64,000 bases of DNA from Bimastos eiseni (lineage: Eukaryota; Annelida; Clitellata; Crassiclitellata; Lumbricidae), in the NCBI GenBank assembly GCA_959347315.1, contig OY365814.1:1802033-1866032 (forward strand), read 5' to 3'. The notes below the pieces were generated by a model. The model saw only the letters and a list, made by a program, of their open reading frames with translations, had not been told where the DNA came from and did not search any database. Made by a program: the position numbers and the translations under genes. The number at the start of each line of letters is the position of its first letter. Positions within the stretch are counted from its first letter, which is position 1. Shown in pieces: positions 16,043 to 39,988 of the stretch.

Positions 16043-16229
16043 TCGTACAATCTTCCTCTCGAAGTATTGGACATCATCTTACAAAAGTCCTATCTACATT
16101 GGATGTTGAATTCATCAACAAAGCAAAGAGACGAAGATGTTATCAGATCTCTCATGTCAGTCGACATTTGCTTCAATCGAAGATTTACCAGACGCCATTT
16201 CAAGAAAGCAATCTGGCGTTATTTGAAAG
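16043..16229 (+). CDS. Gene A, F-box-like exon (internal exon, 187 bp)
   Basis: The exon follows a strong acceptor (TTTCCACTTTAG, ending 16,042) and ends before the donor GTAAAT, phase 0 in and phase 1 out. The translation starts YNLPLEVLDIILQKSYLHW, continues through EDVIRSLMSVDICFNRRFTR and ends near KKAIWRYLK. The LPLEVLDIIL start and the later V..C..R core look like an F-box with an insertion, which would recruit SKP1/CUL1 ubiquitin ligases; this assignment is by eye. Gene B has the same exon at identical length (39,802-39,988) with about 56% identity over the first 55 residues. The upstream start exon was not found; a foldback transposon sits just upstream. Confidence 0.65.
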
Positions 16230-17903
16230 GTAAATGTTTCGAAGCATTGCTATCCAACCGATGTAACTAGCCCACAAACGATTACTTTGATATATTTTAA
16301 TATTTTCTTACATTTTCCATAGTGTCATTACCATCAGCCATAATGGTTGGCTAGTAAGCCAGAATTTGAGTTTTCAATAGCTCAAATGATGTGATCAGTG
16401 CTTTTTTTCTAGAAAAAAAGATGTCGGAACTCATCTGAATTGTCGGATAAAATTACGCCAAAATTAGGTACCAAATACAATAAATTTTATAGAACACAAT
16501 GATCACAGTCTATAAACCTACACATATAGATTGTAGACCGAAAGTAATTGAGATAGGGCCCAGTAAAGTTAGATATAAAATCCCAGAGTTTATGACAATT
16601 TTCGTTCAAATGTTTCCTGTCGCAATTTCCTAACGCGTCAAACACTTTTAGAAAAATTAATGTTCTCAAGTTATTCCTTTTTAGATCTGCGACCATATTT
16701 AATATGGCTTCGTGTTTAGCAGATTCATTGTGTAGCTAGTTTTGCAGTCATGCATCTTTTTTCGAACGCAGAGCGACTCGCTTTTTGAACATAAATCAGT
16801 TTTTTGCTCTGATATCCAGTAACTTGGCCAGTCATCATCGTGTGCTCATCTGTGTAAATGAAATCCCACGCCGTAATCTGAATTTTTTCTGTTTCTTCTA
16901 TGCTTGGTCTAACTTTTATCTTGATTGGGAAACCAGATGAAAAGAAGCTGGTGATGCTTTTCATTTTGAAATTTGTGCTAGTTTTTTAATTAGCGTATTT
17001 ATTTTATAAACTTATTGTCTTCAACTTTATTTTCAGATATATTTATTAATTTACAACGCCGATAACAGAAGACGATATTAACGACGTAATATTTACCGTG
17101 GCGCGTTTTACATGATACCACAGATGAAGCACTTAGGCCTAGTTCGCTTGTTTACTGGCATAGAAGTTAGTTAGATCACAAAAGTCCAGTCAGTTATAAA
17201 TAATAGGCCAAAAACAGAACCTATAATTTGTCAGAGGCGCATTTTCAACAATTTTCGCAACCTTGGAATAAAGAAAATTTATTACTGACGCCTCGTCGAC
17301 AGATGCAACACGGTGTCATCGTTCTTCCTATGCGTATTAGGGCCAGGTGTTGAAAGCAATATTGGCCTATACAGCTTCAAGAACAAAGCGATATTTTACC
17401 ACTTGTTATCCACACACAATTAGTTTCCCCACGTTCAAACATGTTTTACAATGATTGTTCTCTCAGTATAGAAGCTTCGTCTCTTTCTGTCTTCTCTTCC
17501 TACCCAACTACCACGAATTCACAGACTACTATAGAGGTCTCTACATTTTTCAATGGTATGAAGTCAAACCGCTTTCTTATTTTCACAACTTTTAACCCTT
17601 TCATTCATCATTTTTTTTAATTCACCTAGACTACTGCGACCCACTATAGGAAATGATTCTAAAGCGGCTATTGGTATCTACAAAAACGATATTGATTAAT
17701 TGATTTATCGAGACACTGTGCGTTTGCCCTCTTCCGTAAGTTTGAATGTTGTTTTATTTAGTTGAATCGACTTCAACACTTCTGCATTACCCAAAATCAG
17801 CAGAAGTTTCTATTAACCTAAGACACAATTGTTACGATTGTGAAATATTGTTCTCTATTAAAGCTCTCAAACTTAGTAAGTATTATATCATTTTCCATTG
17901 CAG
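16230..17903 (+). other. Gene A intron 1
   Basis: Spliced phase 1 to phase 1. It holds no recognised element. A minus-strand ORF at 16,725-16,964 (79 residues, contains IQITAWDFIYTDEHTM) looks protein-like but has no homology I recognise and no clear partner exons. Confidence 0.5.
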
Positions 17904-18191
17904 ATTTCTATGTAAAAACCAAGAAGGTATCTGCAATCATTAGAAACAACGCAAAGTTTCTGTTGCAAAATATTCAACCGAATGACGAATTATTAACTAC
18001 GTTGCTATCTGCTAACTGTATCACGAAAGAACAGAATCACTTCACTCAGCGACAACATTTAGACAGAAATAAGAACGCCGAACTGTTGTGGATTGTGAGA
18101 TCCATGGACAACGCTACATATTCACATTTTATCAGATGTCTTCGACGAAACAACCAGAAGACAGTGGCAAAGATCTTAGAAAACGGAGGAG
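17904..18191 (+). CDS. Gene A, CARD exon
   Basis: The acceptor TTTTCCATTGCAG and donor GGAG/GTTTAC bound a 288-bp phase 1-1 exon. The translation (DFYVKTKKVSAIIRNN..., QPNDELLTTLLSANCITKEQ..., ending HFIRCLRRNNQKTVAKILEN, then GGG) has the helical pattern of a caspase recruitment domain: I..N...L...I.P.DELL..L.....IT.EQ, then F..CLR..NQ..VA.I. CARDs form homotypic filaments in apoptotic and innate immune signalling. Gene B has the equivalent at 38,259-38,540. The ORF runs on past the donor into a GAT microsatellite, which is intronic and not part of the protein. Confidence 0.75.
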
Positions 18192-18239
18192 GTTTACAAT
18201 TCACACTTCAGTTTACGGATTATTGGCACAATTTGATCA

Positions 18240-18382
18240 AAAATAATGATGATAATAATAATGATGATAATAATAATAAAGATAATGATCATGATAATAA
18301 TGAAAATCATAATGATAATTTTAAAATAATAATACTGGTAATGCTAATGATAATCACAATGATAATAATAACAATAACACTA

Positions 18383-18442
<60 letters not shown>

Positions 18443-18560
18443 GTGGTGATGATGATGATAATACCAATAGTGACAGCAGCAGCAGCAACAACAACAACAA
18501 TAATAATAGTAATAATAACAACAGTAACAATAACAATAATGGGCACCTCAGACTCTGAAT
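18240..18560. repeat. Complex AAT/GAT/AAC microsatellite
   Basis: Trinucleotide tracts dominated by GAT (pure at about 18,383-18,440), AAT and AAC begin 49 bp after the CARD exon donor. They create long Asn/Met/Ile-rich or Leu-rich reading frames that are not protein genes. Confidence 0.95.
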
Positions 18561-18634
18561 GAGACCAGAAACTGATTGACTCTAACGTATTTCATAACGA
18601 ACTAATGAGTCTGTATCCATGTCTGTTGATTCAC

Positions 18635-18649
18635 GAATAAATATAATAA

Positions 18650-18681
<32 letters not shown>

Positions 18682-18830
18682 ATTATAAATAATAATAAAA
18701 ATGATAATGAGAGTGATAATGATGATGATGATAATGATAAAAATAAAATAATAATTATAATAATAATAAGAAGAAGAAGAAGAAATTACAATAATAGTAA
18801 TTATGATAATAATGGTTGAAATAATGCTAA
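18635..18830. repeat. AAT/GAT microsatellite
   Basis: Second trinucleotide tract in the same intron, with AAT, GAT and AGA units. Confidence 0.95.
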
Positions 18831-19609
18831 TAATTGAAATTCTCTGTCAGCTCTTTTTAAAACATATAGCATCTTATTTTGTACAACGCTTAACATACAC
18901 AATATTAGGCTAATGATTGTGATTTGGGTTTTTATCGGTTTTGCCAATGGTTCCATAGCGATCTGACTCACCGTTGATTAATGAGTCCAAAGGCATTCTG
19001 CGCTCAGAAGGAAAGAGTAATGAAAGAATAAAACGACGCTCGTATGAGACGTAATGGTTATTGATATACTGGTGAAGTACTACCAGGAGGCAACTGCCCC
19101 AGCCGTTGGAGCAGTGACGTCAATACCGGACAACAGAACAGAAGAATTCAAAATTAGACAGACTCACATGAGTTAATCCCACTTTAGACCCTATCAATTC
19201 CATAGGCGTCTCGCTCATCAAGGACTTAGGTCGACACTTGACGCAGGCAATAGAAGATACGAAGGAAAATACCTTCTTATTCCAGAAACACTCTAAGGCT
19301 GTAATTCCGGCGCTTTTGGCGGTTACTTTGCTGACTTCAAGACGAGTTTTAGGATGGGATGAAAGGGTAGTCGATATATGCGCTAGATAATTGATCTTTT
19401 GGTCACTTGGAGAATAACAATGCCTGAAGGCAATTGCAATAATAATAGTTGAAATAGTAGCAGGTCGAATAATAATCGCAATAATAATGGATAAAATCGT
19501 ATTTTAACGTATTTTAGTTTTGTGGGAAAAATACAAATAGCGTATTTTATTGCCCCGAACATTACTGCAAGCAACGCAGGCTACTCATTCTAAGAAAACG
19601 ATGAAACAT

Positions 19610-20015
19610 CCAAAAACAGCGCAATTCATTTTATCAATCCAGCCTAAACTTAAGTATTTAATCCTTATCATAGATCCAGCTTCCAATTAGGTGCATTTAT
19701 ATTCATCAATACAACTCCCATTTAGGTATATTTCTTTTCACGTTCATCACGTGCGACGTAGACCATCACTCAACATAGTTTTCCGGCATTTTCTCATCAG
19801 TCCAACTTCCATTTATGTATATTTCTTTTCAACGACCAGCTTCCATTTGAGTAAGCCTATATTTCTTTCATGAATCTAGCTTTCATTTATGTATATTTAG
19901 TTTTATCTATCCAGCTTTCATTAGGTATATTTCTTTTCATCAGTCGAGTTTTATGGATACGGTCTTCTCTGCATCGATTACTCTTCCATCGTAACCACAT
20001 TCTTTCATTAATCCA
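19610..20015. repeat. Foldback-type array, reverse orientation
   Basis: Repeated CATTTATGTATATTTCTTTTCA and related CCAGCTTCCATTTAGG units form a degenerate array within gene A's second intron. Confidence 0.6.
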
Positions 20016-20019
20016 GCTT

Positions 20020-20170
20020 TTACTCAATCAATCAATCAACCCATCAATCAATCAATGAAACTTAGTATAGCACCTCTTCAAGAAATGTAATCAGAGGCGC
20101 TCCCAGTCCAACCTCGATCATATAAGACAGATTTCAGAGTGGACTAAAACAGAGTAGAGATTTTGTAGGT
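20020..20170 (-). repeat. CR1/L2-like retrotransposon 3' tail
   Basis: Minus-strand copy of the TTTCTTGAAGAGGTGC tail with a TTGATTGATT repeat at 20,020-20,060. Further upstream similarity to 9.25-9.33 kb (AAATCTGTCTTATATGA region) supports the same family. Confidence 0.65.
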
Positions 20171-20179
20171 AAGAGTGTA

Positions 20180-20280
20180 GTATGATATTTTCATCAATCT
20201 AGCTTCTATTCAAGCATAATTCCTTTCATCAATTCAGTTACATAGTCTTCTTTTTCATCGATCCTGGGTCCACATAAGAT
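20180..20280. repeat. Foldback-type units, reverse orientation
   Basis: Short run of TTTTCATCAATCTAGCTTCT-like units between the retrotransposon tail and the SINE. Confidence 0.5.
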
Positions 20281-20482
20281 AAAGTTGGACATCTATTCAT
20301 GTCAAATAATAAAATCAGCCAAAAATACGAGTGGATGAAACGGAAATAGGACTACGCTAAATTACGATTTTAACTAATAATGAATATGCAAATGAGAATA
20401 GTAATATTCATGACAATAGTACCCATAACACTAGCAACAACAAGTGCAGATTATAATTTCTATTAATCATGCCCTATGATAT

Positions 20483-20720
20483 GACGTGTGGCACGGTGGC
20501 CGATCGATTAGAGCGGTCAGCCTGTAACATTCAGTGTGCGCTGAGTGAGCGGGTTCGACCCTCATCCGAGGAGTCAGTCACTGTGTAGGGACCTTGAGCA
20601 AGTAATTCGCGCACAGTACTTGCTCTGCAGTGCAACTGCAATTGCGCCGTCGACGTGTGTGTGTGCACTTCTGAGCAAAAAATGTTGGGAAAAGGGCGGT
20701 ATCAAATTTCGGTAATATAA
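20483..20720 (+). mobile_element. tRNA-derived SINE
   Basis: The head resembles a tRNA: an A-box-like stretch GTGGCACGGTGGCCGATCG near 20,488 and a B box GGGTTCGACCC at 20,551-20,561, with spacing typical of pol III internal promoters. The body (GCAATTGCGCCGTCGA and the GAGCAAAAAATGTTGG block) recurs at 13,405-13,510. The tRNA part does not fold as an intact tRNA by eye, so I call a SINE rather than a tRNA gene. Confidence 0.7.
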
Positions 20721-21069
20721 AGTAACATTTAAACAGAAATTAGAAATAAAAATTGTCTTATGTACTAGAATTTGTAGGCCTATAAATAATTCCAAAATAT
20801 GTGCTTGGCCTAAACACGATTTTATTTCTAACCACTATTAATCTGTGGGCTATAACAGCGCATTTCTTTGACTGATCTATCTATTTTTTAGTCTTGTGTT
20901 TTATAAATGCCTACGCAATGATGACATTTGCATTTTATTGCGAAGAACACGGACACCTTTTTGTTTCTCATGCAACTAAAACCAAAGGAATATTTTAATT
21001 GAACAGTAGTGAACTAAATCGACGTCTGAGTAAGTTATTTGGAAATTGGAAATGCATTTCTTACTTTAG

Positions 21070-21427
21070 TTGTAATAAAAGTCGACGTGCAAAATCGTGA
21101 TGACTTCTCCAGGAGTATGATCTCAAAGGAAATACAGCGACTTCATCAAAACATCGAGGATCTCCGAAACAGTAGCAAACCGTTGTCGCAGCAAACGCAT
21201 GAATGGATGAATCAACTGAAGGATAAAGGCGTAGAAATCCTTTGCTCTCAACTGAAAGGACAGACTGTGGTCGTTTGGATCTGTTGTCAGACACAAGCAG
21301 CACTTAAATATATTCAGTCGCTGTACGAATCGAATCAACTGAAAGAGGAACTCTTTCGAACTATTCATACATCCAATTCGATGGTTATCAAAATTGAAAG
21401 GAATCAGTTCAGGAAAACTGTGGGCAA
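21070..21427 (+). CDS. Gene A, central-domain exon (unidentified adaptor-like domain)
   Basis: The acceptor TTTCTTACTTTAG and donor CAA/GTAACT give a phase 1 to phase 2 exon of 358 bp. The protein has a helical first half (FSRSMISKEIQRLHQNIEDL) and then KGVEILCSQLKGQTVVVWIC, followed by QTQAALKYIQSLYESNQLKE. Gene B has the same block at 37,041-37,404. The pattern of a hydrophobic strand, C.(T/S)Q..L..IQ..YES..L...L resembles TRADD-N-like adaptor domains; this is a weak by-eye guess. Between CARD and propeller it may link signalling and sensing parts. Confidence 0.65.
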
Positions 21428-21509
21428 GTAACTAAAAATGCACTTATTATTATTGCGAAAACTTAATGTAGATCCTGATCAACAATTAATGCACACATCT
21501 GGCGAGCGT

Positions 21510-22040
21510 TCTCAGTGAGACCGCGGTTATAAACAGTGTGTGCAAGACTTGAAACTTCAAAACCAAGATGATACCGAGACAGTGAGGTGCTCATACCAAA
21601 ACCGAGACCGAAACAGTGAGGTACCAAGACCGAGACCGAGACACTAGGTTCAAGACAGTACGAGACAGTTAGAAACAGTAAAAGACAAGTGATCCTATAT
21701 AAAATGCTGTAAAATGCTAATGTATCAGTTTTCGAGAATAATTTTTATTTGCAATTTCAATTTGAAACATATAATGTATATAGTACAAATTCCTGAGAAC
21801 AGTTTTTATATTGCCGCGCAAGATTTTAAGACAGTTCACGCGAAACTTATCGAGACAGCTTGTTCGAGACAAAACAAGACATTCACTTCAAGACAGTTTC
21901 TAAAAATTTGAGACACTACCTCGAGACCGAGATAGCAGGCCACCGAGACCGAGACACTAAAAAACTGTCTCAAGACACTGTCTCGAGACCAAGACACTGT
22001 CTCGAGACCAAGACACTGTCTCGAGACCATACAACTCTGG
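21510..22040. repeat. GAGACC-rich dispersed repeat, copy 1
   Basis: GAGACCGAGACA-type words flank a unique core of about 250 bp and end in direct 19-bp repeats of AAGACACTGTCTCGAGACC. The core (ATGCTGTAAAATGCTAATGT and following) is present in inverse orientation at 63,060-63,310, with similar words on both sides. It sits in the intron between gene A's central and propeller exons. Confidence 0.75.
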
Positions 22041-22238
22041 TTATAAAACGGACTTGCATGATTATCATAGCCATCAAATTATGCGAATGCAAATGGTGGC
22101 TATTATCATATCGAATTTCGACTAGCTTTTAAGCTCGAAACTAGAAATGTCCAAATATCGGAATTTAAAGTGACTTGTGTGCAGTTAATGGCCTCATTTA
22201 CCTAGAAATGCGTATGAGAACGTTTTGTAATTAAACTC

Positions 22239-22260
22239 ATGTCGCCAGAGCGTTCCGTCG
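22239..22260 (+). CDS. Candidate start exon for the gene A propeller
   Basis: An ATG opens seven codons (MSPERSV) and a leftover base, followed by a strong donor GTAAGC. Its phase 1 matches the propeller exon at 22,455 exactly, whereas the central exon at 21,427 ends in phase 2. If real, the propeller could be its own transcript or use an alternative promoter. I found no clear equivalent in gene B, so support is weak. Confidence 0.25.
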
Positions 22261-22454
22261 GTAAGCCATATTTTAGATACACTTAAGGCCAAGAGATAAT
22301 TATAATTCTGCTGCTTAATCAAATAACGATATTGAACAATTAAATCAATGACTGATGACTAAATACATTTTATCAGTAACATGTAATACATAATTGCAAT
22401 TAATAAAGGAGCATTATTAGTCAAATAAAAACGAATCTGTGTTTTTTATGTTAG

Positions 22455-23411
22455 TCGATTGTCCGATTTCCATCCATTTCACTCAGAGGCAACAAATAAG
22501 AATAAACGAAAGTGTGTTTGGAGTGACTAAACTGGGAAATGAAATCTACGTCCTCTGCAGAGTATCTCGTGCTAATCAACATGAATCACGCTTCTCCAAT
22601 CCTCCAACAATAATTCGTGTCTTTGAGGATCGAAACAAATTTCGTCCAAAGAAAGAAATCGAAATAAATGAGATTAAATATCCAGAAGACATTGGATCCA
22701 GTCAGAAGGAAATTTGTCTTTACGTCTCCGACTCAATAAAAAAACTGCATCTGGAAGATGACTATAAAAGCATATGAACGACACAAAATCATCAAATGGC
22801 TGAGCCTTGATTATGCTCCAGAAACTCTGTCAGTGTCCAGTGATGGTCAATTGCTGATGGTCGACGGTCGGTGGCTCATTCTGAATATCTACGGATCAGA
22901 CGCTGAACTCGTTCGATCCGTTCAGTTAGGCCTATTAGGAGACATCTTGCATCCAATTCATGCAGTGAAAACATCCATCGAACATTTCATCATCCTTTGC
23001 CGTAGGATGAATGAGAAACAGTCGCTCATATTTGAATTGACCAGCGATGGACAGACGATCATACGTCGTTTCATTCCCTCAAATGCAACGCAAAGACTGT
23101 ATTTGCCTGCCTATCTCTCACTTGATTCTGACAATCGAGTGTTCGTCGCTGACTGCACCAACACTAGGGATGGTCGAGTAATTCTATTTGATTCCGATCT
23201 TAAATGGAATCGAATTCTTTGTCCAATTAATGAAAAAGAAGAAAAGTGGAACTATCCACAACACGGATTGTATTATGACGAAGAAAGGGAACAACTGATC
23301 GTCGGAGTATGGCCGTCATATTTTTCACCAGGAGGTCTTAGAGTTTACACTTTGAGTCGATATCAGAGTAAAGTTTCATCGACAGAATCTGACAATCTAA
23401 TAACCTTTTAA
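22455..23411 (+). CDS. Gene A, NHL-like beta-propeller terminal exon (one frameshift)
   Basis: The acceptor TTTTTTATGTTAG precedes a phase 1 exon that ends at a stop. The protein reads FGVTKLGNEIYVLCR..., SQKEICLYVSDS, then, after a one-base shift in a run of seven A at 22,738-22,744, KNCIWKMTIKAYERHKIIKW, SLDYAPETLSVSSDGQLL and later LYLPAYLSLDSDNRVFVADC and LIVGVWPSYF. Aligned with gene B (GENCVWKITKETDDQHTIIK) the frame is restored by one fewer A. NHL propellers bind proteins or RNA. The gap between exons and the frameshift leave it open whether this copy works. Confidence 0.7.
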
Positions 23412-24090
23412 GAGGTCAAAATTATGTGATTAATATTCAGACACTGTTTTTGATTAGTATCTATTGTACTTCTGAACTTACAACATATAAACATCTTAAG
23501 GAATTCCATAAGAGTCGTTATACTCAAAATTACTTCATCGTTACGTCGTAATCACATGGCTCAAGTTGAATGGCAGACTCAACAAAACCTGTACAAACCC
23601 AGAACCGGTTCTGACATAAAGTTCAAAAGTGTGTTTCAATTTCAATGATCACATTTTGACAGATGTAACAGAAATTGTCCAGCAATAGGCTGTAACCAGA
23701 TCAACTGAGGTAAACTGAAATCAACGCAAAAGCGAATTTGTCCAGAGAATAGCTTTTTAGGAAGCTAACAAATAACAGCTGAAAACAACAAACTATTATA
23801 ATGGCTGACACGAGCGACATTTTCATGTGTTAGTCTATACATGTATTGCATCGTTTATGTTATTTCAAGGAATTGCTTCAGCAGCGGAGTATATTGACTC
23901 TTGTTGTCCCTTATTAACATAAATACGTCTCGCATTGTTCTATGGCCGACGTATATGGCATCGACCATGAGAGTTTGATCGAATGAGATCCTTCACCACC
24001 GCTCGTCCGTTTAAATGAAACACATGCAAATTTATGGTAGGCTTAAACCAGTTTAAGGACCGTATTAACCCGAGATTTAAATCTCTGAAA
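23412..24090. other. Region 3' of gene A
   Basis: Likely 3' UTR and flank. The first bases (AAAATTATGTGATTAATATT) recur after the decayed propeller copy at 24.99 kb, which shows that the duplication included 3' flank. No other element is assigned. Confidence 0.4.
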
Positions 24091-24510
24091 TAAGGGGCCA
24101 TCCGCATATTACGTACGCAGCGAGGGGTTTCAAATAGCGGCGATTCTACGTACGGGTGAGAATGGCAGGGCAGGGATCCAGAAAATATGTACGTACGCAC
24201 ATAATATAACCGTCTAATTATGTCGTCCAAATTACGGAATACTAAAATCAGAGCTGAAAACCCGATCACGGATTATATTCCTGCTGAATCAATTTTAAGT
24301 AGCATTAAACTTTTTTTAAATGCAAGTGTTTTAGCATTTTAGTTCCTCGTAACAGTTTACAAATTTAAGCTGTTAAATGTAATGTAATGCTCAACAAAAA
24401 TAAATAGTCTAGGGGGTCCATAAATGATGTCATGCACCTAGGAGAGAAGGGTCACGCGTTTGTGACGAGGGAAGGGGTCAAAGAAATATGACGTCACATC
24501 ATCACATCAT
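24090..24510. repeat. MITE-like sequences with GGGGCCATCC / GACGTCAC ends
   Basis: AAGGGGCCATCCGCATATTA near 24,093 and GGGGTCCATAAATGATGTCA near 24,413 resemble termini of small DNA elements, with inverse GTACGTACGCACATAATAT near 24,190. Borders and target duplications were not resolved. Confidence 0.35.
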
Positions 24511-24610
24511 TAAAACATAAAAACTACTGCCTCATTTTAGAATTTCACTCAGTGAAACAAGTTCCACTTAATTAACAGCAAGCCTCATGTGAGACACTGG
24601 TGGGAGACAC

Positions 24611-25010
24611 TCTCGGTCATTATGAATTAATCAGCGATGGAGACGCGATCATCAGTTGTTACATTATATCCAATGAAACGCAGACTGCGTAAACCTTTCT
24701 ATCTCTCACTCGATTCAGACGATCGAGTGATCGTGGCTGACTACACCTGGTGGAATATGAAGAGTCGACTAATTCTCCTAGATTCCGATCTTCGATAGGA
24801 TAGAGTTCTCTGTCCAACAATAGAGATAGAAGAAGCGTGGATCGTGTTACGATAAATAAAATCAACAAATGATCGTCGGAGGTCAATTGATTCGTGAGAA
24901 GGTCTTGGTTTTTACATTTTGAGTCTAAATTAGACTCACTATTCATCAGCAGAACAACAACAAAAATTTAATAATCTTTCAATAATTCAAAATTATGTGA
25001 TTAATATTTA
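24611..25010 (+). pseudogene. Decayed third copy of the propeller exon
   Basis: Sequence from about 24,611 follows gene A's propeller end: ATCAGCGATGGAGACGCGAT, then CTATCTCTCACTCGATTCAG, CGATCGAGTGATCGTGGCTG, GATTCCGATCTTCG and ATGATCGTCGGAGG. Stops and frame changes disrupt the reading. It is followed by the same ATTATGTGATTAATATT flank as gene A. It is a tandem, truncated, non-functional relative of gene A's last exon. Confidence 0.8.
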
Positions 25011-25014
25011 AACT

Positions 25015-27019: not shown

Positions 27020-27658
27020 TAACCTTTACGCATGTTCTGCTGCTCCACCGGCTGTTGATGCTGTCATATGTACATAAGAGGATGCGCATGTGTGAATGGC
27101 TGTTGCGTCCCATGCTAGGTGTCTGCCTCTCGCCCATGGGATTAATGTAGCGCCATCTGGTCTCTTGCCATCGGTGCGGATCAGTCCCGATGGTTTTCTT
27201 GTGCTCGGAATGTCCGCTTTCAAGAGAGCTTTCCCGATTATTTCATTTATGGCAGAGTGTCGTGCTGCTCTTCCCATTGATCTTCTGCAGACCAGACCGT
27301 GATGTCCACCTGGATCGACGCTCTCCCCGCATTGACATGGATGTGATGCACAGAGCACTAGTCCTAGGCGAAGTCCTGCCGCAACCATGATCGCCTCATT
27401 GCAGAACGACAGTGCATCAAGTACTCATCCCTCCCCATCACGCATGATTTTGTGCCAGTGGCCATCGAATCACTGGGCCCCATAAACCGCACCGGAATGG
27501 AGTTTCTTCAAGAACTGGGCCGCCGTATGACACAGGCAACGGGAGACCCACGCGAAACAACTCATCTTTTTCAACGTCTGTCTATTTGTACACAACGTTT
27601 TAATGCAGTGGCATTCAGGGGCTCTTTTGTTCAGCCCGATTGGGACGAAAACCTATAA
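27020..27658 (+). mobile_element. 5'-truncated, 5'-inverted non-LTR retrotransposon with RLE-like domain
   Basis: The right part (27,390-27,658, +) encodes the extreme C-terminus (DFVPVAIESLGPINRTGMEF to FNAVAFRGSFVQPDWDENL, stop). The left part (27,388-27,026, -) encodes the preceding region on the opposite strand: HHGLVCRRSMGRAARHSAIN, SGLIRTDGKRPDGATLIPWA and HLAWDATAIHTCASSY. The RH...KRPDG...WDAT pattern looks like a restriction-like endonuclease. The switch near 27,389 is the classic 5' inversion left by twin priming. The stop codon merges into a (TAA)n tract, so the element ends at an AAT microsatellite. Confidence 0.75.
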
Positions 27659-27660
27659 TG

Positions 27661-27736
<76 letters not shown>

Positions 27737-27746
27737 TAATAATAAT

Positions 27747-27820
<74 letters not shown>
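27658..27820. repeat. (AAT)n microsatellite
   Basis: About 163 bp of AAT with rare A insertions, wedged between two copies of the same retrotransposon class. Confidence 0.98.
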
Positions 27821-29460
27821 GAGCCACTAGAACTTCTTTGCCAAAAAGTCCTGCCCCGCCGCGTGACCGCCCAGCCATCCTTCGATCGACCTCAAGCGCA
27901 CTCTTCCAGGCCACAGAGCTAGAGATTCGCACAATGATGCGCTCTTTCCCTATGGGGTCGTCGGGCGGCCCTGATGGGCTGCGCCCCCAACACGTGGCGG
28001 AACTGATTGGAGATCCAGACGCGGGACCTAGGCTGCTGAGAACGACGACTGCTCTTATTAATCTACTACTGTACCTCTTGAGGGCATCTGCCCTCAAGAG
28101 GTACGGCCTATCTTATTCGAAGGTACTCTTTTCGCTCTCCGTAAAAGCTGTGGTGGTCTAAGGCCAACAGCCATTGGATACGTGTGGCGTCGACTCGCAT
28201 CTAAATGCGCCAACGCATACGCCGACCCACGTGTCACGCCGTACCTAACCCCTAAACAACTGGGGGTTGGCGTTCCCGGAGGCTGCGAGGCGGCAACCCA
28301 CGCCGCTAGACGATTCCTGACCAGCATGGACACGAGTTCAATAATGGTGAACCTTGACATCTCGAACGCTTTCAATAGCTTGCACCGAGACTCCATGCTC
28401 GCATCAGTGGACGAACTCATTCCTAATTTATCCGCATATTGCCATCTTGCCTACGCCGAGACGACATCTCTGAAATTCGGGAGATTCACGATACAATCGC
28501 AAGAAGGTTGGCAACAGGGCGATCCCTTGGAACCTCTACTTTTCTGCTTACCGCTACAGCCGATCCTTAATCACCTGCTTTCACCATTATCCTTTGGATA
28601 CCTAGACGACATCACCTTGGGCGGAGATCCTAAGGTGGTGGAGGCGGATGTTAACTCGATCGAAGAGGGATGTCTGCAACTTGGCCTCGCGCTCAACCGC
28701 AAAAAATGCGAACTCATATCTTTTGACTAGAAGAAAAGCTACAGGATCCCTACGACCAGGCGAGACTAAGGGCCTTGCAGTCACCGCACGCCTCGGACTG
28801 GCTATACGCTCTCCCGCTTGTTTCTTGCGATCTGAGACTGGAGGACGATACCGTGAGAGTGGCGGTCGGCCTACGATTAGGGGTGACCATTTGCGAGCCG
28901 CACACCTGAGCATGCGGCGCCTTCGTCTTTGCCAGAGGCGCACATGGCCTGTCCCGTTCATTGGGTTTTGGTCGTCAAGCAAGACACTGTAATATCAACG
29001 ACCTTATCCATCGCAGCCTCAACAGAGCCGGTATTCCAGCGGTCAAGGAACAGTCAGGTCTTTCCAGATTAGATGGAAAGAGACCGGACGGGCAGACCAT
29101 GATACCGTGGAGTGGGGGACGGGCTACAGGACCACTGTCGCTTTGGGACGCGACAGTGGTGGACACAGTGGCCTCTTCTTATATCCCCGAGACAGCTTCC
29201 ACAGCTGGAGGAGCGGCGGAGATAGCAGCTACATGGAAACACACAAAATATTCTTAGCTAGAGAAGTAATAAACTTTTGTTCCAATCGCTATAGAAACCT
29301 TCGGTCCCCTCAATAGTGAGGGCCTCGCCTTTCTGTCTGAGACTTGACGCCGACTTTCGACAACTACCGGTGACACCCGAGAGACAAACTTCCTTTTCCA
29401 GAACTTGTCGGCATTGATCCAACGTTTCAATGCGGTTGCTTTTCAGACACTCTATGTCAA
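27821..29460 (+). mobile_element. Non-LTR retrotransposon, RT plus RLE-like domain, with frameshifts
   Basis: Plus strand. RT N-terminal part: MMRSFPMGSSGGPDGLRPQH. After a frame change at a palindrome (28,071-28,104): TLFALRKSCGGLRPTAIG, motif A NLDISNAFNSLHR, QQGDPLEPLLF and catalytic YLDDITLGG. Then, with another frame change near 28,730, SPHASDWLYALPLVSCDLRL, CNINDLIHRSLNRAGIPA, LDGKRPDGQTMIPW, LWDATVVDTVASSY and TFVPIAIETFGPLNSEGLAF. The order RT then KRPDG...WDAT matches the 27.0-27.7 kb copy. RLE-type elements of the R4/Dong group are known to insert in TAA repeats; assignment to that group is inference. Confidence 0.75.
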
Positions 29461-29597: not shown

Positions 29598-29733
29598 CAA
29601 TAATAATAATAATAATAATTCAACGTTCGTAAGGATTCCCTTCCAGTGACGATGATACCGGTTCTGATCCAACAGAAGACCTGGGACAGACCCGATGGGG
29701 ACGAAAACCTATAACAGTTATAATAAAAATTAC

Positions 29734-29788
<55 letters not shown>

Positions 29789-29862
29789 GTAATAATAATA
29801 ATGATAATGATGATAGTAATAGTAATAATAATAATAACAATATATTATTATTATTATTATCA
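29461..29862. repeat. AAT microsatellites with a retrotransposon 3'-end fragment
   Basis: AAT tracts at 29,558-29,619 and 29,720-29,862 bracket about 95 bp that ends in GGGACGAAAACCTATAA, the same sequence that ends the copy at 27.66 kb. This marks a further short 3' fragment inserted in the microsatellite. Confidence 0.8.
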
Positions 29863-30660: not shown

Positions 30661-30661
30661 C

Positions 30662-30988: not shown

Positions 30989-31755
30989 GCGTTCATTACA
31001 AATTGACTCTTGTGAAATGTAGAACGTGTAACAATTGATGTACGTTTGTCTAAAATGTGGTATTATTAAAGTTACTATGAGCAAATTAACGCTGATCATG
31101 TATATTATTTTTTTTAAAGTGGATGTTACTTGTGCTTTGTGTTAACTTGCTTTATGTTTTAAAAGTAGAAATTCAGATAGTAACGCAAGCCTGACGTTGT
31201 CGAGATTCGACGGCAATACAAATGAACAGTTACGTTACGCCGTCTCGACTCATGCCTGTGCTCTTGTACAGTCTTTCGTCGAATGCAATTGCTAACCTGC
31301 AAGTCAGCAAGTGCTTACGAAAGACTCAACCGATTTCCGTCAGCTTCGAAGGGTCGGCATGTAGTGTTACATTGTATATGTACACTAAGATTAGTAGAGT
31401 TGTGAATCGACGAAGGCTAAACGATAATCCGATAATCATGTGTATAAATTATATAATATTTAGTTTATGTTACTATTATTCATTCATACGAACATTTGAA
31501 TTAGCCCGATTTGAATCTAGATTTAACATTTAAACGTACCATATATATATATATATATATATACATGGAACCAGTATCAAAAGTCAACTAGAACATTATG
31601 TAGAAGTAATAAGTGATAGAAGCCCATATTACGTTACAGTACGATAAATAGGGATGGATCATGGTAAAATATGAAGTATTACGAACATTAATAGGTATAA
31701 GATACGATGTCCTTGATAATATTCCTATGTTTTTAGCAACATTTGTAGATATACT
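30989..31755. other. Unassigned sequence
   Basis: Includes a short TA run (31,541-31,563). The ORF at 31,222-31,533 (+) is not recognised. Confidence 0.35.
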
Positions 31756-32500
31756 TTAGATATGTGCGTTCCATTTAAGAAATTGGTCCACATGAGCGCC
31801 AAGGAACTTGATTGTTACTACTCTTAGTATGGGGACACCATTTAGGTTAAGTTCACCGGTTGTTGCTGGAGGGGGTCGTTTACGGTGCGAAGTAAATAGG
31901 ATGTGATTTGTTTTGTTCACGTTACGAGATAATTTATTCATATTGAACCATTTGTTAACAAGATCAAGTTCTCGGTTCATCATGCTAAATAATATCTAGT
32001 AAAATTTGTGAGAGGCAAGGATATTTGTGTCATCAGCAAATAACAGGAAATGTATCAGATTAGAGACATTGGGTAAGTCATTGATGAAAAGTACGATAAG
32101 CAGTGGTCGGAGGATTGAGCCCTGAGGGAAGCCATATTTGATAAGTTTAAGTTTAGACGAGAATCCATTACAAAACACATATTGGTGTCTATTAAATAAA
32201 TAGCTCCGGAACCAGTTTATGGCTTCCCCTCGAAGCTCCATATTCTCCAATTTTAATAATGGGATGTTATGGTTTACATAGCCTTTGAAATATCAATAAA
32301 GATACCAAGAGAATATTCATTGCGGTCAATAGCTGCTGATATATTATCCTGAATGCTTAACAGAGACATTATTGTAGAATGGTCTGGCTGGAAACCATGC
32401 TGTGAAGGGCAAAGGACATTAGATTTGTCGATAAAGTCAAAGAGACGGACATACATGATTTTCGCAAGCAGTTTAGCAAAGTAAGGCAAGATAGAGATGG
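31756..32500 (-). mobile_element. Non-LTR retrotransposon RT fragment (jockey/CR1-type)
   Basis: Minus-strand ORFs in series: SQHGFQPDHSTIMSLLSIQD with EYSLGIFIDISKAM, then INWFRSYLFNRHQYV, KYGFPQGSILRPLLIVLFIN, catalytic LLFADDTNILASH, then LDLVNKWFNMNKLSRNVNKT with NHILF. These are RT motifs in correct order across frame breaks, so the copy is inactive. It is the same family as 14,113-14,375. Confidence 0.85.
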
Positions 32501-32784
32501 GTCTATATCAGATTCATTCGCACGCGGACTGCTGCGCTAAGCCTGACATTGGGTGAGTATTCGTATTCTGGTGTCACTTTTCCTTAAGCATGATTTAGTG
32601 TGTTAGCTGCGAAAGCTTCGTTTTCAGCCAGCTGGCCTCTTTCGTGTGTTGTATTTGATCATAATTGGATTATTGATAAACTTTGCAGCCTAGTGGAAAC
32701 TGAAAGGAGTGTTAAGAGCTTTGAAGATAGATCGATGCAGGGAGGCTATAAAGGATTGAGTTGCGCCCATCAATTCTCGAAGGT
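32501..32784. other. Unassigned sequence
   Basis: No supported feature. A small plus-strand ORF at 32,600-32,809 is not recognised. Confidence 0.3.
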
Positions 32785-32925
32785 TTACTATCAAAAGGGC
32801 GAAAATTAAAAGGGCGCAATCAAAAGGGCGAAAATCATAAAGAGCGAATGATCAAAAGAGCGCACGTTTAAAAAGGCGACAAACAAAAGGGTGCACGTTC
32901 AAAAGGGTGAAAATAAAATAAATGT
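32785..32925. repeat. 15-16-bp word array, CAAAAGGGCG type
   Basis: About eight units such as CAAAAGGGCGAAAAT, CAAAAGAGCGCACGTT and CAAAAGGGTGCACGTT. The outer edge CTATCAAAAGGGCG is identical to that at 50,874, where the array borders a large foldback-type block. It lies just 3' of gene B. Confidence 0.8.
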
Positions 32926-33051
32926 AAAGAAAAGAAAAGAGCGATTCAGAGATGGAACAATTGATAACAAAATAACCAGGACGGCAAACGAATATAATTA
33001 GTTTGCCTAAATCGATTCATAATTAAAAGGAATTATAAGCATGGAAAGTGA

Positions 33052-33914
33052 CTATATGTGATTGAACGTATAGACATAAATTGCGCCATGTATATGTACA
33101 TTTCCTCCAACGATCAGTTGCTTCTGTTTTTCATCATAGCACAATCTCCGCGGAGATCTGATCTCCGGTTCGTCTTCATTTTCCGTTGGACAAAGAATTC
33201 GAATCCATTGGAGATCGGAATCAAATAGAATCACTGCATGATTACCTTGGTCAGCCACAATCACTTCATCCGCTGAATTAAGTGAGAGATATCGAGGTTC
33301 ATTCAGTTGTTGTGCTTCATTTGAAATAAATTGACGGACAACCATCTGTCCATCGCTGGTCAACTCACTTATACACCAGTCATTGTGCCAATCAATCCAA
33401 TTTTCATCAGTTGTCACGTGAAGAATGATGTAATTCCCGGTGGATGTTGCCACGGCACGAATTGGGTTTATAATGTCAACTGGTAACAGAATCGATCGAA
33501 TAAGTTTTGCGTCTGATCCGTAGATCATCAAATTTGGCGGTGAATTGATCAACAGCAATAGCTGACCATTTCTGGACACTGACAGAGATGTAGCGTCATC
33601 AGCGGTCAGCCATTTTATTATTGTGTGTTGATCATCTGTTTCCTTTGTAATCTTCCAGACGCAGTTCTCACCAAGTTCGAAGACGTAAAGACAATTTTCT
33701 TTCTCACTGGATTGGATGTCACTTGCATATTTAATTTCTGCAGTTTCGAATTTTCTATAAAGTCGAAAAGGAGTTCGACCCTCAAAGACAGCAATTGTAC
33801 TTACACACAAAACGTAGATTTCATTTCGCAGCTTAGTCACTGCATACAAAAATTTATTGAGATCATTCGTTACCTCAATTCTCCCAGTTAAACTAACGGA
33901 CATCGGACAAATGG
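33052..33914 (-). CDS. Gene B, NHL-like beta-propeller terminal exon
   Basis: The acceptor GTACCTGTAG precedes a phase 1 exon of 863 bp ending at a stop. The intact protein includes FLYAVTKLRNEIYVLC, SEKENCLYVFELGENCVWKI, HTIIKWLTADDATSLSVSRN, GQLLLLINSPPNLMIYGSD, LNEPRYLSLNSADEVIVADQ with GNHAVILFDSDLQW, and PRRLCYDEKQKQLIVGG. The repeated 'x.L....GQLLL', 'A(D)QGNHAV' and 'IVGG' strands fit an NHL-type propeller. Unlike gene A's exon it has no frameshift. The role is inferred: ligand or substrate recognition domain of the same multi-domain protein. Confidence 0.75.
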
Positions 33915-34626
33915 CTACAGGTACAATAATAACAAATTACTGTTGATACACATTAACCGGCAGTTACTAGGCCTATCTTCATTAGTCATTAAATGTTAAA
34001 GACGTTTTATTACAATATTGACAGTCAATGGTCAAATTCACTTTCACTCTGTAGATTAAATTAACTGCCATCATATTTTTCTCATTTAAACTGTTTTCCA
34101 TCATGTTCTACATTTTGTATAAAGCAAACGTGAGAATTTAACCTATCGATCTATTACATTATTCTTCTTAATAATTCTATATATATATATACAATATAAT
34201 ATATATATATACATCTGCTGTTAATCGTCATGAACGTATAGGCCCCACTTGCTTGTAGGGCCTGCAATCGGTTACTACAGTGCTATAACACGCGCTGTTC
34301 ATTGCTGATTATTTCTAATAACGTGTTGATCTCCCTCGCATTCGCATGTAATTGTTTCTTCAAGTTACTCGCTCCTTACATATATATTATATAACTCATT
34401 CAATTTTCATCTTTAACTTTTCAACGCTCTTCATTAAAAGCTGTCAATTAAAATGTCACTCAATTTCACTGTCAGTTTCTCATTTTGACTCAAACCATTC
34501 TTGTCCTGATATAAATAAATAAATTTACCTGCCGTACACTCATTTCTCCTTTGACAGTTCACCAATTATTATCTAACTTTGATCTTAGACTAAGTCATAA
34601 TCATATATAATTCGCATCCATTTCGT

Positions 34627-34896
34627 ACATGTATCTTCCATTGTATCCATGTATCTTCCATTGTATCCATGTATCTTCTATTGTATCCATGTATCTTCCA
34701 TTGTATCCATGTATCTTCCATTGTATCCATGTATCTTCCATTGTATCCATGTATCTTACATTGTATCTACGTATCTTCCATTGTATCTATGTATCTTCCA
34801 TTGTATCCATGTATCTTCCATTGTATTCATGTATCTTCCATTGTATCCATGTATCTTCCATTGTATCCATGTATCTTCCATTGTATCCATGTATCT
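34627..34896 (+). repeat. 20-bp minisatellite, about 13 copies
   Basis: The unit is ATGTATCTTCCATTGTATCC, with a few substitutions and no length change. It lies inside gene B's intron. The multi-frame ORFs it makes are artefacts. Confidence 0.95.
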
Positions 34897-35090
34897 TTGC
34901 CATAATCCCAGTTTCTGTCCATCTGACTTTGGCCTTACTCACTCTTGATCTCATTTAAAGTCTGTTTGTTGCTATTTTTGCCATAAATCTGCTATCTAGG
35001 CTTCACATTTCGACTCTTGGTTTCTGCTTCTGATTCTATATCGACCATATCCAGACTGCCACGTCACGGCAGAAACCTTAAATATACTAT

Positions 35091-36420
35091 ATGATTCCAT
35101 CTCTAACGATGAAACATTATGTTGTTCCTCTCCTCAAGTCAACTGCTGTGGACGAAACAATGGAATATATTGATTATTTAACCACCTATACGCTCCTCTC
35201 ATCAGTCGGAAGTACAGCTGCTGGTCCCGTTTGTCTGACTGCAGGGCTTTTCAAGGGGGTAGCTCCTATGGTTGCAGAACATGTCGCAAGACTTTTTAAC
35301 ATTTCAATAATGTCCTCCTTTTTCTCGCCACAGTGGAAGACTAGCACAATCACGCCGGTTGCAAAAGTCGCTCGCCCGTCAGACGAAGCCGACTTTCGAC
35401 ATATATCGGTTACCTTCATCCTCAGTCGTCTTCTATAAAAGTTTATCGCATACCGATTTTTCCATCCATTCCTGACGCAGCCGCAATCCAACCAGGAATT
35501 TGAGGATCAATGTGCCTTTCGTCCATCGGGTTCAACCACTGCAGCCCTCATAACCTTGATCAACAACCTACAAGAACTCCTTCATGACAACCAATATGTC
35601 AATTTGATAGCCCTAGACTTTTCAAAAGCCTTTGACACGGTCGAACACGCACATCTCGCAGAGCGGTTGGCAGAGTTGTCCATTCCATATAGTATATACA
35701 ACTGGATCATTAACTTTCTTAGCAATCGCAACCACGGAACCAAATACAATGGCGTCGTCTCGGCAATCATTCGTATTAATGCCAGCATTGTCCAGGGTTC
35801 TCACTTCATTACGGCCATATCCAGGTTAAAAGCTGTCCCTCTTGCACATGGACTGGTCAAGTACGCTGACGACACATACCTGTTGATTCCTGGTTCCAAC
35901 CAGGACACGATTGAGATTTAACTAAATCATGTGTCTGGGTGTGCTGCCAAATGCAACCTACGACTAAATATTAAAAAAGACGAGATGATTATACGACGTC
36001 CTCGGGGCGGTGGGGTCGAGGAGCAGACCCATTGGAGACGCCAGGACTGCCAAGGGTCAAGAGTATGGTTATCCTGGGTGTCACCATGACTGAAAACTTC
36101 AATTTTGAACCTCATATAAATAAATTATGTGCCCGAGTACTGTAACAGTCAGTGATGAACAGACTGATTCGCCAACGCTATCTGCCAGATGATATTCTTC
36201 CATTCGAACATTTTGATCGGGTTGGCTGAAACGGCTCTATTCAAAGCGCTACTGGAGAACCTAGGTCACGTGCTGCACCGGTTCCTTCCTCCTATTAAGG
36301 CGATCTTCCACTCCCTACGTCCGCGCCCACATGACCGTGAAATTCCACAGGCGGACAGTCTTGAGCGATAATCCTTTTAATGAGAATGTCGTATTATTAA
36401 AACTAATGTATTGCTATTTA
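35091..36420 (+). mobile_element. Non-LTR retrotransposon fragment (CR1/jockey-like RT to C-terminus)
   Basis: Pieces in order on the plus strand: AGPVCLTAGLFKGVAPMVAE, FSPQWKTSTITPVAKVARPS, then FRHISVTFILSRLL (stop), CAFRPSGSTTAALITLINNL, motif A ALDFSKAFDTVEHAHLAE, INASIVQGS and catalytic LVKYADDTYLL, then the tail LRPRPHDREIPQADS near 36,310-36,370. Stops and frame changes show that it is dead. It is antisense within the intron of gene B. Confidence 0.85.
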
Positions 36421-37040
36421 AAAGATCAGCTGATCCCCACAACTGCATGTATGTTGCAGATAATCTAGAGTGAAAATTCTGTTTCAATTGTTTAATTAAA
36501 ATGCTGTACTTTTAAATGTATTGTAAACCAGAGTGCGGATAAGCAGTTGGTTCAATTAAGAATATATTTGTTTGCTTATAATATGGTAATGAAACAATAA
36601 TTAAGTAGTTCAACCCCCAATGTGCTTGCGCCTTCAACGAACAATCAGTTTTATTTACTCAGATAAAATGTATATTGGGGTATGTCATACCCCACCTCAC
36701 CCTAAGGTTACAATGCTTCAACTCACTCCCAAAGGGTTAAAAAATGAACATCACTCTTTTTGTTATAATATATGTTTTGTAACCCAGAAAAGTGTTAGGC
36801 CCTATAAGCATATCTTTCAAAGTCTATTTAACACAAGCAACACTATAGATAGGGTCCTTGAATGCTGCCATACATTAAATTTCGACTCCTATTTAAATTG
36901 TTAACATCTTGTAGCACTATATTAACCGTTACTACCGTGCACTTTTCAGCTTCAATTAAAAAGTGAACATCACTCTTTTTGTTATAATTACTTTAATTAC
37001 ATGCTTGAAGTTTTCTTATAAAGAATTAATTAACTAGAAC

Positions 37041-37404
37041 CTGCCTTCTGCGACTGTTTTCTCGAATTGACTGCAACCAACATTGATAACTTTCGACTGA
37101 ATGATTTCAGTTGGAATATTTGCCAGACCAGATAATACGTCTCTCAGTTTATTCGATTCGTATTGCCTCTGAATATATTCAAGTGATGCTTGTGAATGAC
37201 ACCAGATCCAAATGACCACAGTCTGTCTGTGAAGTTGAGAGTTGAGGATTTCAATGCCTTCATCCTTCAGTTGACTGTTGTGCTTATAGGTTTGACGTGA
37301 CCAAGGTATGATTCTGCTCCGAAGGTCAACGAACCTTTGATGAATGAGTTTATGTGTTTCGATGGAAGTGTTTGGAGGATTTTTCACTTCAACATTTATC
37401 ACAA
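37041..37404 (-). CDS. Gene B, central-domain exon (unidentified adaptor-like domain)
   Basis: The acceptor TTTTTGCATTTAG and donor GGCAG/GTTCTA give a 364-bp phase 1 to phase 2 exon. The protein runs VVINVEVKNPPNTSIETHK, then QRFVDLRSRIIPWSRQTYKH, QLKDEGIEILNSQLHRQTVV with IWIWCHSQASLEYIQRQYES, NKLRDVLSGLANIP. The second half is the best-conserved part with gene A (EIL.SQL..QTVV.WI.C.(S/T)QA.L.YIQ..YES..L). The family is not certain; a TRADD-N-like fold is possible. It sits 0.85 kb from the CARD exon. Confidence 0.65.
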
Positions 37405-38258
37405 CTAAATGCAAAAAGAAAAATAATGAAATACTAAATTCTTTGACGTAATTTTCGTTAACCTGTTATTCATTTAAGAGTTTAGGCTGATTCAAATTGT
37501 GAAAAGTGAAAAATATTTTATGGAATACAACATTCTGCAAATGAATAATGTGGCTAAAGCAATGAGTCAAGCAACAAATGCGTATTTTGCATTAATTATA
37601 TTTTGTTGACAGACTGATAAAATGGAAATACATGTATTTGCTTAAAGCGCTGAAAAAAGAAGAGATAGACCCTAAGTCTTCAACTGTTTACGAAGTTCGT
37701 CAAAAGATATTAATGGGTCCTAATATGTCCATGGCATTGATCGACACGGTGCGTGTAGAGTGTTATAGAAGGACGGTATTACAACAGTTAATGTCGCCGG
37801 CTTTGATTAATTGACAGTCGAAATACAAGTCTGTTCGATGCTAGGCTTTGAAATGTCATATTATTACATCTTACAATGGTAACTTAAGACTCAGGTGCCA
37901 TTAACCCTAAAGTACGTAATGTGATTAAGATTGCCAAATGTTTCTCATCTTGTCATTTTAGACGCATTTAGGAATTGTATCAGTGGTATGGTGTTCTTTT
38001 TTGAGTTAATTCTCACTTCCACCATTGGTTTTAAGTGATTTTGACGATTACCAACATTTTATGAGTAAGCATGGATGCAACCCAAGCCTACCAAAGGACT
38101 TCAAGTTATCAATGTAATAAACCCAAATTTGACGGATGACCTTACTACTACGATGACCCTTAACGATCAATTTCCATCTGTAAAGAATGTCACACCATAA
38201 TAGTTATCAAATAAAACGTGTTAGTTGCGAAAAATGAGATCAAAGATTTACTCTGAAC
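37405..38258 (-). other. Gene B intron between CARD and central exons
   Basis: 854 bp, phase 1 at both ends. No repeat was recognised. Gene A's equivalent is over 2.8 kb owing to insertions. Confidence 0.55.
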
Positions 38259-38540
38259 CTCCTCCACTTTCGACGATCTTTGCCACTGTTTTCTGATTGG
38301 TTCTTCGCAGACAGATGACGAAATTTGACCACTTAGTTTCGCTCAAGTCGCTCAAAAAGGACAAAATTTTGGTGTTCTTATCTTCTTTTGAAAGTCGTTG
38401 TTGAATAGATTGACTTTGCTCTTCCGTTATCCAGTTTAGAGACAACAGCAAAGCAAGTAATTCGTCGCTCGGATGAATATTTTCTATTAGATATTGTCGG
38501 TTTTTTCTTATGATGGCATATTTCCTCGTGATTTGCATAT
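38259..38540 (-). CDS. Gene B, CARD exon
   Basis: The acceptor TTGGTCTTTTTAG and donor GGAG/GTTCAG bound a 282-bp phase 1-1 exon. The protein reads MQITRKYAIIRKNRQYLIEN, IHPSDELLALLLSLNWITEE, QSQSIQQRLSKEDKNTKILS, ending in WSNFVICLRRTNQKTVAKIV and ESGGG. The helix pattern and the I.KNR..L...I.PSDELL..LLS..WITEEQ and F..CLR.TNQ..VA.I signatures identify a CARD-type death fold. It is the ortholog-like partner of 17,904-18,191. As in gene A, the triple Gly lies exactly at the donor. Confidence 0.78.
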
Positions 38541-39801
38541 CTAAAAAGACCAATAATATGACTATTAAGAAAATTACGCAATTGATTCATTAGAAAAATA
38601 TTGTTGTGTCTTCAGCAGCAAACTTGTTCTTGTCCAAGTGAATGAGGAACCTTAGTGAGTTTACATAAGCTCAACTCGTCATAGAAAAAGAAAGTTCCCA
38701 ATATCACGCACGGTGGTTTAAAAGACGCGGTGGTGATCGTAGTCGGGACTTGAATGGGGTTCTCTAGTGATTCCAACTAAATCCTGATCTTTGAGTTACT
38801 ATTTTCACAGTGCTAACCCTTTATGATGAATATATGAATAGATGTATATAAGTCTTTTTCGTTCTATAGTATGTTCTAAAATCTCTTTTTCAATTTTGGG
38901 TTTTTGTCCATTTCTTTTATTTCTAGTTTTTTAAATGTAATTTCGTTAACTTATTTACTTGCTAGTGGTGTCTGTAAATTTTTATTTTCCACGAATGATG
39001 TCTATGCGCTTTTGCTCTGTCTGGTCAGCCTAGCCTGGTAGCCGCGTGCATTCAGATTGCGTCTACTGTCAACGTTGTCTGTGAATTGGGCAGATTGTTA
39101 ATGTTGTCTTAGACGCAAGCGCAGACATCTGTCTGCTGCGTGCGAGGTCGGTTAAGCTTGGCGGCAGTATGGAAGAAGTTTGCGTTGAGGGGGGCAGCTC
39201 TGCGGTTGTCGAACAACTACAAAAGTACAAGTCTCGCAATCTTGCAATCTAACGCTTTTGACCAAATCCTGAGTGACAGCTAAAGGAAGACATGGATACC
39301 AATAAGTGTCGTCAGAGGAACATAATCTGTACTTTCATTTGTATAACTTATATCGATCAGAAATCCAAATTTATTGCTGATTGGTTAATATATTAATGTC
39401 AAGAGCACAACTCCAAAGGAAGGTTGTGGACGACAGCCGAATTTCACCATATAATGCTCAATTGGATTCACATTATTCAGTTACACATTTGAGGATGTTT
39501 TGATTAGGACTATATATTTGAATTTTAGGTACAATATGCTTAAGATATGCACTGCACGCATTAAATCCTGAAGAAAGTATATCGGTCGTTGAATTTATCG
39601 CTCATAGGTCTTATTAACACGAAAAAAGATAAAGCATTATTTGCAAATCAACGTTTTGGAATATGATTGATTGAGACACAAAATAAAATTGTTAAAAATT
39701 CTGCAAATTCAACGTAATTTCACATTTATTGTCGCCCGCGTGAAGAAATCACTTTGATATAAGTTAGATTGGCTTTACTTTTGAGAATGAAAACAACCTA
39801 C
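38541..39801 (-). other. Gene B intron 1
   Basis: Phase 1 intron. It contains a GC-richer block (39,030-39,240) whose plus strand has a short ATG reading frame (MEEVCVEGGSSAVVEQLQKY), not assignable. No other element was recognised. Confidence 0.45.
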
Positions 39802-39988
39802 GTTGCATTCGTTGCGAAATTCTCTTCTTAAATCTTGGTTTTGTTATTCGTCGAAACCAACAGAAATCGACTGATGCAAGAGTTTTGATGACATCTTCGT
39901 AGCTCGGAATTGATGAGGAGTTCAGTAGCCAATGTAGAAACGAATTTTCTAGGATGATATCCAGCAACTCCAGTGGAATTTCATTCAT
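39802..39988 (-). CDS. Gene B, F-box-like exon
   Basis: The acceptor TAATTTTTCAG sits directly before ATG AAT GAA; the donor is GCAAC/GTAGGT, phase 1. Length is 187 bp, exactly as in gene A. The protein is MNEIPLELLDIILENSFLHW, LLNSSSIPSYEDVIKTLASV, DFCWFRRITKPRFKKRIS. The IPLELLDIIL...L.SV..CW.R core resembles an F-box (LP.ELL..IL...V...W) with an inserted hydrophobic segment. The ATG at the exon start may be the initiator after a 5' UTR intron, or translation may begin further upstream; gene A lacks an ATG at this place. Confidence 0.65.

Follow-up and report, generated by a model that had tools for sequence, protein, structure and literature searches.

CARD, TRADD-N-like, and NHL-propeller exons in a large earthworm gene family: a candidate intracellular recognition system

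According to a 2021 survey (PMC8195603), TRADD-N domains underwent lineage-specific expansions in Amphimedon, Crassostrea, and Branchiostoma, with up to 357 proteins. The families combine a Death-superfamily domain, a TRADD-N domain, and a variable C terminus, with beta-propellers (WD40 in amphioxus and oyster) among the variants. SH3 is present in the Amphimedon set, and the survey proposed that the propellers linked to TRADD-N recognize invaders. Here we describe two related loci, A and B, in a 64,000-nucleotide stretch of the genome of the earthworm Bimastos eiseni (GenBank assembly GCA_959347315.1, contig OY365814.1, here C9:1802033-1866032; "the window"), together with their relatives in the whole 660-Mb assembly of 118 contigs. 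The encoded protein would run from a 62-residue helical domain through a CARD and a TRADD-N-like alpha-beta plait to an NHL beta-propeller, with SH3 at the N terminus in some copies. Like those expansions, this is a large family with a Death-fold domain, a TRADD-N-type domain, a C-terminal propeller, and an occurrence of SH3. Unlike them, it has an NHL propeller, a CARD, an N-terminal SH3, an extra 62-residue domain, and a threonine for the serine of a characteristic turn. A preliminary description of the window knew of no described family with this layout. This needs to be narrowed, because the class of Death-fold domain, TRADD-N, and propeller is on record (PMC8195603), whereas no NHL version was found in the literature searched: the term "NHL" is absent from the survey's main text, and none of the papers listed by literature searches dealt with a CARD/TRADD-N/NHL family. 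The class is already known; new here are the NHL version, the genome-wide linkage of its exons, and a signal of diversification on one propeller face.

Two other groups bear comparison. NLRs and other CARD-bearing sensors join a CARD to a repeat-built recognition domain made of leucine-rich repeats (LRRs). The present family likewise joins a CARD to a repeat-built recognition domain, but the sensor would be a propeller rather than LRRs, and no NACHT/STAND NTPase was found by Pfam among the exons scanned. TRIM-NHL proteins (TRIM2, TRIM3, TRIM71, Brat, and Thin) share the C-terminal NHL propeller and include its sequence relatives in the PDB. However, the same scan found no RING, B-box, or coiled coil, the propeller being joined instead to a CARD and a TRADD-N-like domain and, in some copies, to SH3.

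Loci A and B lie on opposite strands, A on the plus strand at 16 to 24 kb and B on the minus strand at 33 to 40 kb, and share four exons that follow one another in the same order. This confirmed the preliminary description, as did the matching junction phases (0/1, 1/1, and 1/1 for exons 1 to 3; exon 4 is 1/stop in B) and the 187-bp length of exon 1 in both loci. The features are as follows.

16043..16229, plus strand: locus A exon 1, 187 bp, 62-residue helical domain, Ser codon at the acceptor; has paralogs and homologs
17904..18191, plus strand: locus A exon 2, CARD (Pfam CARD, 28.7 bits, E 1.3e-6)
21070..21423, plus strand: locus A exon 3, TRADD-N-like alpha-beta domain, GC donor; 76 homologous clusters
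22455..23411, plus strand: locus A exon 4, NHL propeller, frameshifted near 22737-22743 (Pfam NHL, 17.1 bits)
24576..24919, plus strand: NHL exon remnant, the third NHL exon in the window, with broken frames, downstream of locus A
33052..33914, minus strand: locus B exon 4, NHL propeller, intact to the stop (Pfam NHL, 20.7 bits); 8 homologs
37045..37404, minus strand: locus B exon 3, TRADD-N-like alpha-beta domain by predicted model, GC donor
38259..38540, minus strand: locus B exon 2, CARD (Pfam CARD, 27.7 bits, E 2.8e-6)
39802..39988, minus strand: locus B exon 1, 187 bp, 62-residue helical domain, ATG at the acceptor

Protein identity between A and B was 59%, 49%, 46%, and 43 to 47% for exons 1 to 4, respectively. 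Joining the locus B exons (39988-39802, 38540-38259, 37404-37045, and 33914-33052) yields an uninterrupted ATG-to-stop reading frame of 563 residues. In locus A, a one-base shift at a run of seven A's near 22737-22743 ends the frame inside the NHL exon, and locus A would therefore either be a pseudogene or contain a homopolymer sequencing error. The junction between exons 3 and 4 is phase 1, with a GC-AG intron in both loci. No hidden exon linking the two was found, the genomic copies showing a phase-1 donor, G/GTAAGT or G/GCAAGT (exon/intron); given this donor, we also dropped the reading, considered from the tails of metagenome sequences, in which exon 3 would be the last exon and end in a conserved stop. 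For comparison, ten further loci, g1 to g10, were chosen from high-scoring NHL matches in the genome and not at random. Exon 1 was 187 bp long in all eight genomic copies parsed, so its length stands, but its designation as the first exon is doubtful in most copies. It starts with ATG in B and its close paralog g2, whereas the other copies seen begin with Leu (g3 to g10) or Ser (A) at a phase-0 acceptor, and exon 1 is therefore probably not the first exon of the gene in most copies.

In five of the 12 loci (g3, g4, g5, g6, and g8), SH3 exons lie upstream of exon 1. Three exons make up the unit, two encoding SH3 and the third a short one; their phases (2, 1, and 0) are compatible with exon 1, and SH3 (PF00018, PF07653) exceeded the Pfam cutoff in three of the four copies assembled. 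In the g4 copy the donor is less clear and a stop interrupts the frame, and g3 has a second SH3-like exon further upstream (L013-L014). No SH3 was found in the upstream DNA examined of A, B (within the window), g1, g2, g7, g9, and g10 (3.7 kb only for g10).

The CARD assignment was upheld, since the exon 2 scores of both loci exceed the cutoff of PF00619 (23.9 bits), and the alignments span profile positions 3 to 84 of 85; the CARD of NOD1 was a weak match only. The NHL assignment holds for B, which lies above the PF01436 cutoff of 20 bits, whereas the broken exon of A falls below it. Three of the four NHL homologs scanned exceeded the cutoff (28.7, 33, and 24.2 bits), and P0004 gave no match. 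In five homologs (P0003-P0006 and P0008), the loop joining strands B and C in blade 4 contains a long acidic insert. When the NHL alignment was used as a query against prokaryote and viral collections, 21 and 32 pattern matches were found, respectively, none of which was a relative. The predicted model of exon 3 from the B copy is an alpha-beta plait that may resemble TRADD-N, a domain with an RRM-like fold of two alpha-beta layers. The turn between beta2 and beta3 of TRADD-N has a tiny residue and Ser, occasionally Cys (PMC8195603). Here, position 62 is Thr in 71 of 78 sequences and Ser in 1 of 78, and position 61 is Gln in 49 of 78. Because the turn serine is absent, exon 3 is classed as TRADD-N-like and not as a member of TRADD-N. 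Next to one copy of exon 3, an apparently very long open frame proved to be a run of N and not a protein.

The host genome carries well over 100 copies of the family. All match counts are lower bounds: at least 163 matches were found for NHL (133 of 727 candidates scored; 150 listed), at least 150 for exon 3 (150 of 237), and at least 155 for CARD (150 of 479; 150 listed). The 150 listed NHL matches, 16 of which contain internal stops, correspond to 132 loci, 66 of them on C9, 30 on C13, 16 on C14, and the remainder on seven other contigs. The exons are also linked across the genome. For 103 of 150 exon-3 copies, an NHL match lies on the same strand no more than 15 kb downstream, at a median distance of 1.47 kb, compared to 5 of 150 with NHL upstream and 4 of 150 with NHL on the opposite strand. 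The 47 unlinked copies are an overestimate, because one exon 3 seemingly without NHL has an unlisted NHL 2.8 kb away. Similarly, among the 150 listed CARDs, 108 are followed on the same strand by exon 3 (controls, 13 and 10), the position after a Death-superfamily domain that is typical of TRADD-N expansions, and 79 colinear CARD-exon 3-NHL triples occur among the listed matches. All four exons are in order at nine of the ten chosen loci; g1 has NHL only across ∼18 kb. Protein searches returned 8 NHL, 76 exon-3, and 6 exon-1 clusters, each matching one exon.

The propeller and exons 1 to 3 changed differently among close copies. The ratio of nonsynonymous to synonymous rates (omega, or dN/dS) was estimated by codon models on a grid after removal of all columns containing a gap; A and g10 were left out, as was g5 exon 3, which has five stops in the frame used, from the models of exons 1 to 3. 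Some trends were apparent. First, propeller omega was ∼3.2 in B, g1, and g2 (likelihood ratio statistic 9.71, P = 0.0018) and ∼1.8 in g5-g9 (9.36, P = 0.0022), with 1.8 also in g6-g9 (P = 0.011); the propellers of B, g2, and g4 showed no departure from 1 by codon model (P = 0.39). Second, omega for exons 1 to 3 was 0.5 in g6-g9 (P = 2e-5) and 0.65 in B, g2, and g4 (P = 0.009). Third, pairwise Nei-Gojobori estimates followed the same pattern. In the B-g2 propeller pair, for example, 57.5 nonsynonymous changes were counted against 7.5 synonymous ones (omega 2.2); the other propeller values were 2.9 for B-g1, 2.3 for g2-g1, 1.5 for g5-g8 and g5-g7, 1.2 for g7-g8, and 1.3 for g6-g9, compared to 0.32 to 0.81 for exons 1 to 3 of B-g2, g7-g8, and g6-g9. 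Exons 1 and 2 of g5 gave 0.25 to 0.98, and the values for its broken exon 3 are meaningless. Finally, when nonsynonymous sites are assumed to be 0.77 of all sites, nonsynonymous change in the propeller exceeded the divergence of flanking noncoding DNA (0.033, 0.032, and 0.071 for B-g2, g7-g8, and g6-g9) with odds ratios of 2.7, 3.3, and 2.1, respectively, and change in B-g2 exons 1 to 3 was below it (0.48, P = 0.02). Among distant pairs, propeller omega by Nei-Gojobori was 0.41 to 0.57, with none above 1. Omega above 1 on the putative recognition surface together with a constrained putative signaling part is seen among recent duplicates only.

The changes in the propeller are mostly concentrated on one face. 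The DA and BC loops of a blade with four antiparallel strands lie on a common face. With strands and loops assigned by hand on one propeller (g5) from the NHL motif, after the alignment had been seen, variable sites in B, g1, and g2 made up 39 of 85 positions in the DA and BC loops, 2 of 44 in the AB and CD loops, and 21 of 153 in strands. The corresponding numbers in g5-g9 were 54 of 88, 7 of 44, and 32 of 154. The two pairs of loops differed significantly in both clades (Fisher, P = 3.5e-7 and 8.2e-7, respectively). At 277 comparable sites, 61 were variable in one clade and 85 in the other, 34 being variable in both (P = 3.7e-6).

The excess change might instead reflect mainly sequence exchange between copies and decay of redundant genes rather than selection on recognition. 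Propeller dS exceeds the flanking divergence in g7-g8 (0.080 versus 0.032) and in g6-g9, which implies that exchange does play a part, and decay would be in line with the internal stops of the listed NHL matches, the frameshift of A, and the broken exon 3 of g5. However, decay pushes omega to 1 and not beyond, exons 1 to 3 remain below 1, and in each of two clades the changes cluster on one face. In addition, the B-g2 propeller has a dS of 0.040, near that of its flanks, yet a dN of 0.089. We therefore consider it unlikely that exchange and decay are the main cause.

The architecture, linkage, and copy number, the faster nonsynonymous change on one face, and the constraint on the other exons are features of the genome itself. 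With a probability of roughly 0.6, loci A and B are members (B intact, A damaged or missequenced) of a large intracellular recognition family, for which we infer expression, ligand binding, CARD assembly, and an immune or allorecognition role. The propeller face formed by the DA and BC loops would bind a ligand that differs among copies, such as a microbial, viral, or nonself molecule. Binding would free the TRADD-N-like/CARD unit, which may then assemble and recruit CARD partners, leading to an immune or cell death response. A role in innate immunity, suggested in the preliminary description, is strengthened by the copy number, the clustering, and the diversifying selection on the propeller, and it is still to be read as a suggestion. 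More tentatively, more than 100 NHL propellers with a hypervariable DA/BC face and a TRADD-N-like/CARD switch might provide germline-diversified cytosolic recognition, possibly of self and nonself, which would be a propeller counterpart to LRR-based sensor repertoires.

The ligand might also be RNA, in which case transposon or viral RNAs, and not protein ligands, would be what the family diversified against. Some TRIM-NHL propellers bind RNA, and the sequence relatives of the NHL exon in the PDB include Brat, TRIM71, and Thin; TRADD-N proteins are also linked to RNA-binding domains in the survey (PMC8195603). However, the exons scanned with Pfam contain no RNA-processing domain, and this alternative, which we regard as improbable, would alter the ligand and leave the recognition role in place.

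A quite different reading was that exon 1 is F-box-like and the protein a cullin-ligase adaptor with CARD and NHL, as the preliminary description proposed. Exon 1 opens with LPLE-LDIIL and has a Leu-rich, Cys-Phe-Arg helix, features that we take to be reminiscent of an F-box and count in its favor, and F-box-like_2 was the best match, at E 0.056, in 2 of 14 exon-1 sequences. However, all 14 fell below every Pfam cutoff, including that for F-box, the exon-1 consensus matched no F-box model in Pfam, and the PDB profile search with exon 1 returned no F-box among its matches. Foldseek gave no fold match for the predicted exon-1 model, which is of low confidence (predicted local distance difference test score, 71). 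Exon 1 thus encodes a 62-residue helical domain matched to no family, an F-box adaptor is very unlikely, and, with the F-box unsupported, the idea of cullin-ligase recruitment was dropped for want of evidence. Least probable of all is that the NHL exons are separate genes adjoining CARD genes in a duplicated block, as g1 with NHL alone and an exon 3-exon 4 joining read from genomic DNA rather than a transcript might allow, since exon 3 and NHL are linked far above the controls, the copies are spread over several chromosomes, and the phase-1 junctions match in the copies read.

Other features of the window were noted. Two related groups of C2H2 zinc-finger open reading frames (ORFs) share a common C-terminal segment (47614-48991, minus strand; 57941-58692, plus strand). 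An ORF at 44083-44616 (minus strand) may encode a hAT/ZBED-type transposase-derived protein, and fragmented ORFs at 27026-29316, 31756-32507, and 35082-35921 may be pieces of a reverse transcriptase of the long interspersed nuclear element type. Coding-like minisatellites that translate into short repeated peptides lie at 5677-6636, 34594-34958, and 42046-42409, and a dispersed repeat with similar translation occurs in two copies, at 21830-22132 (in intron 3 of locus A) and 62917-63186.

The diversifying signal is the evolutionary mark expected of a propeller that recognizes invaders, a proposal that the survey had based on domain layout alone (PMC8195603). If the recognition reading is true, the family would be a large and testable propeller-based recognition repertoire in an invertebrate, with its candidate loops named.

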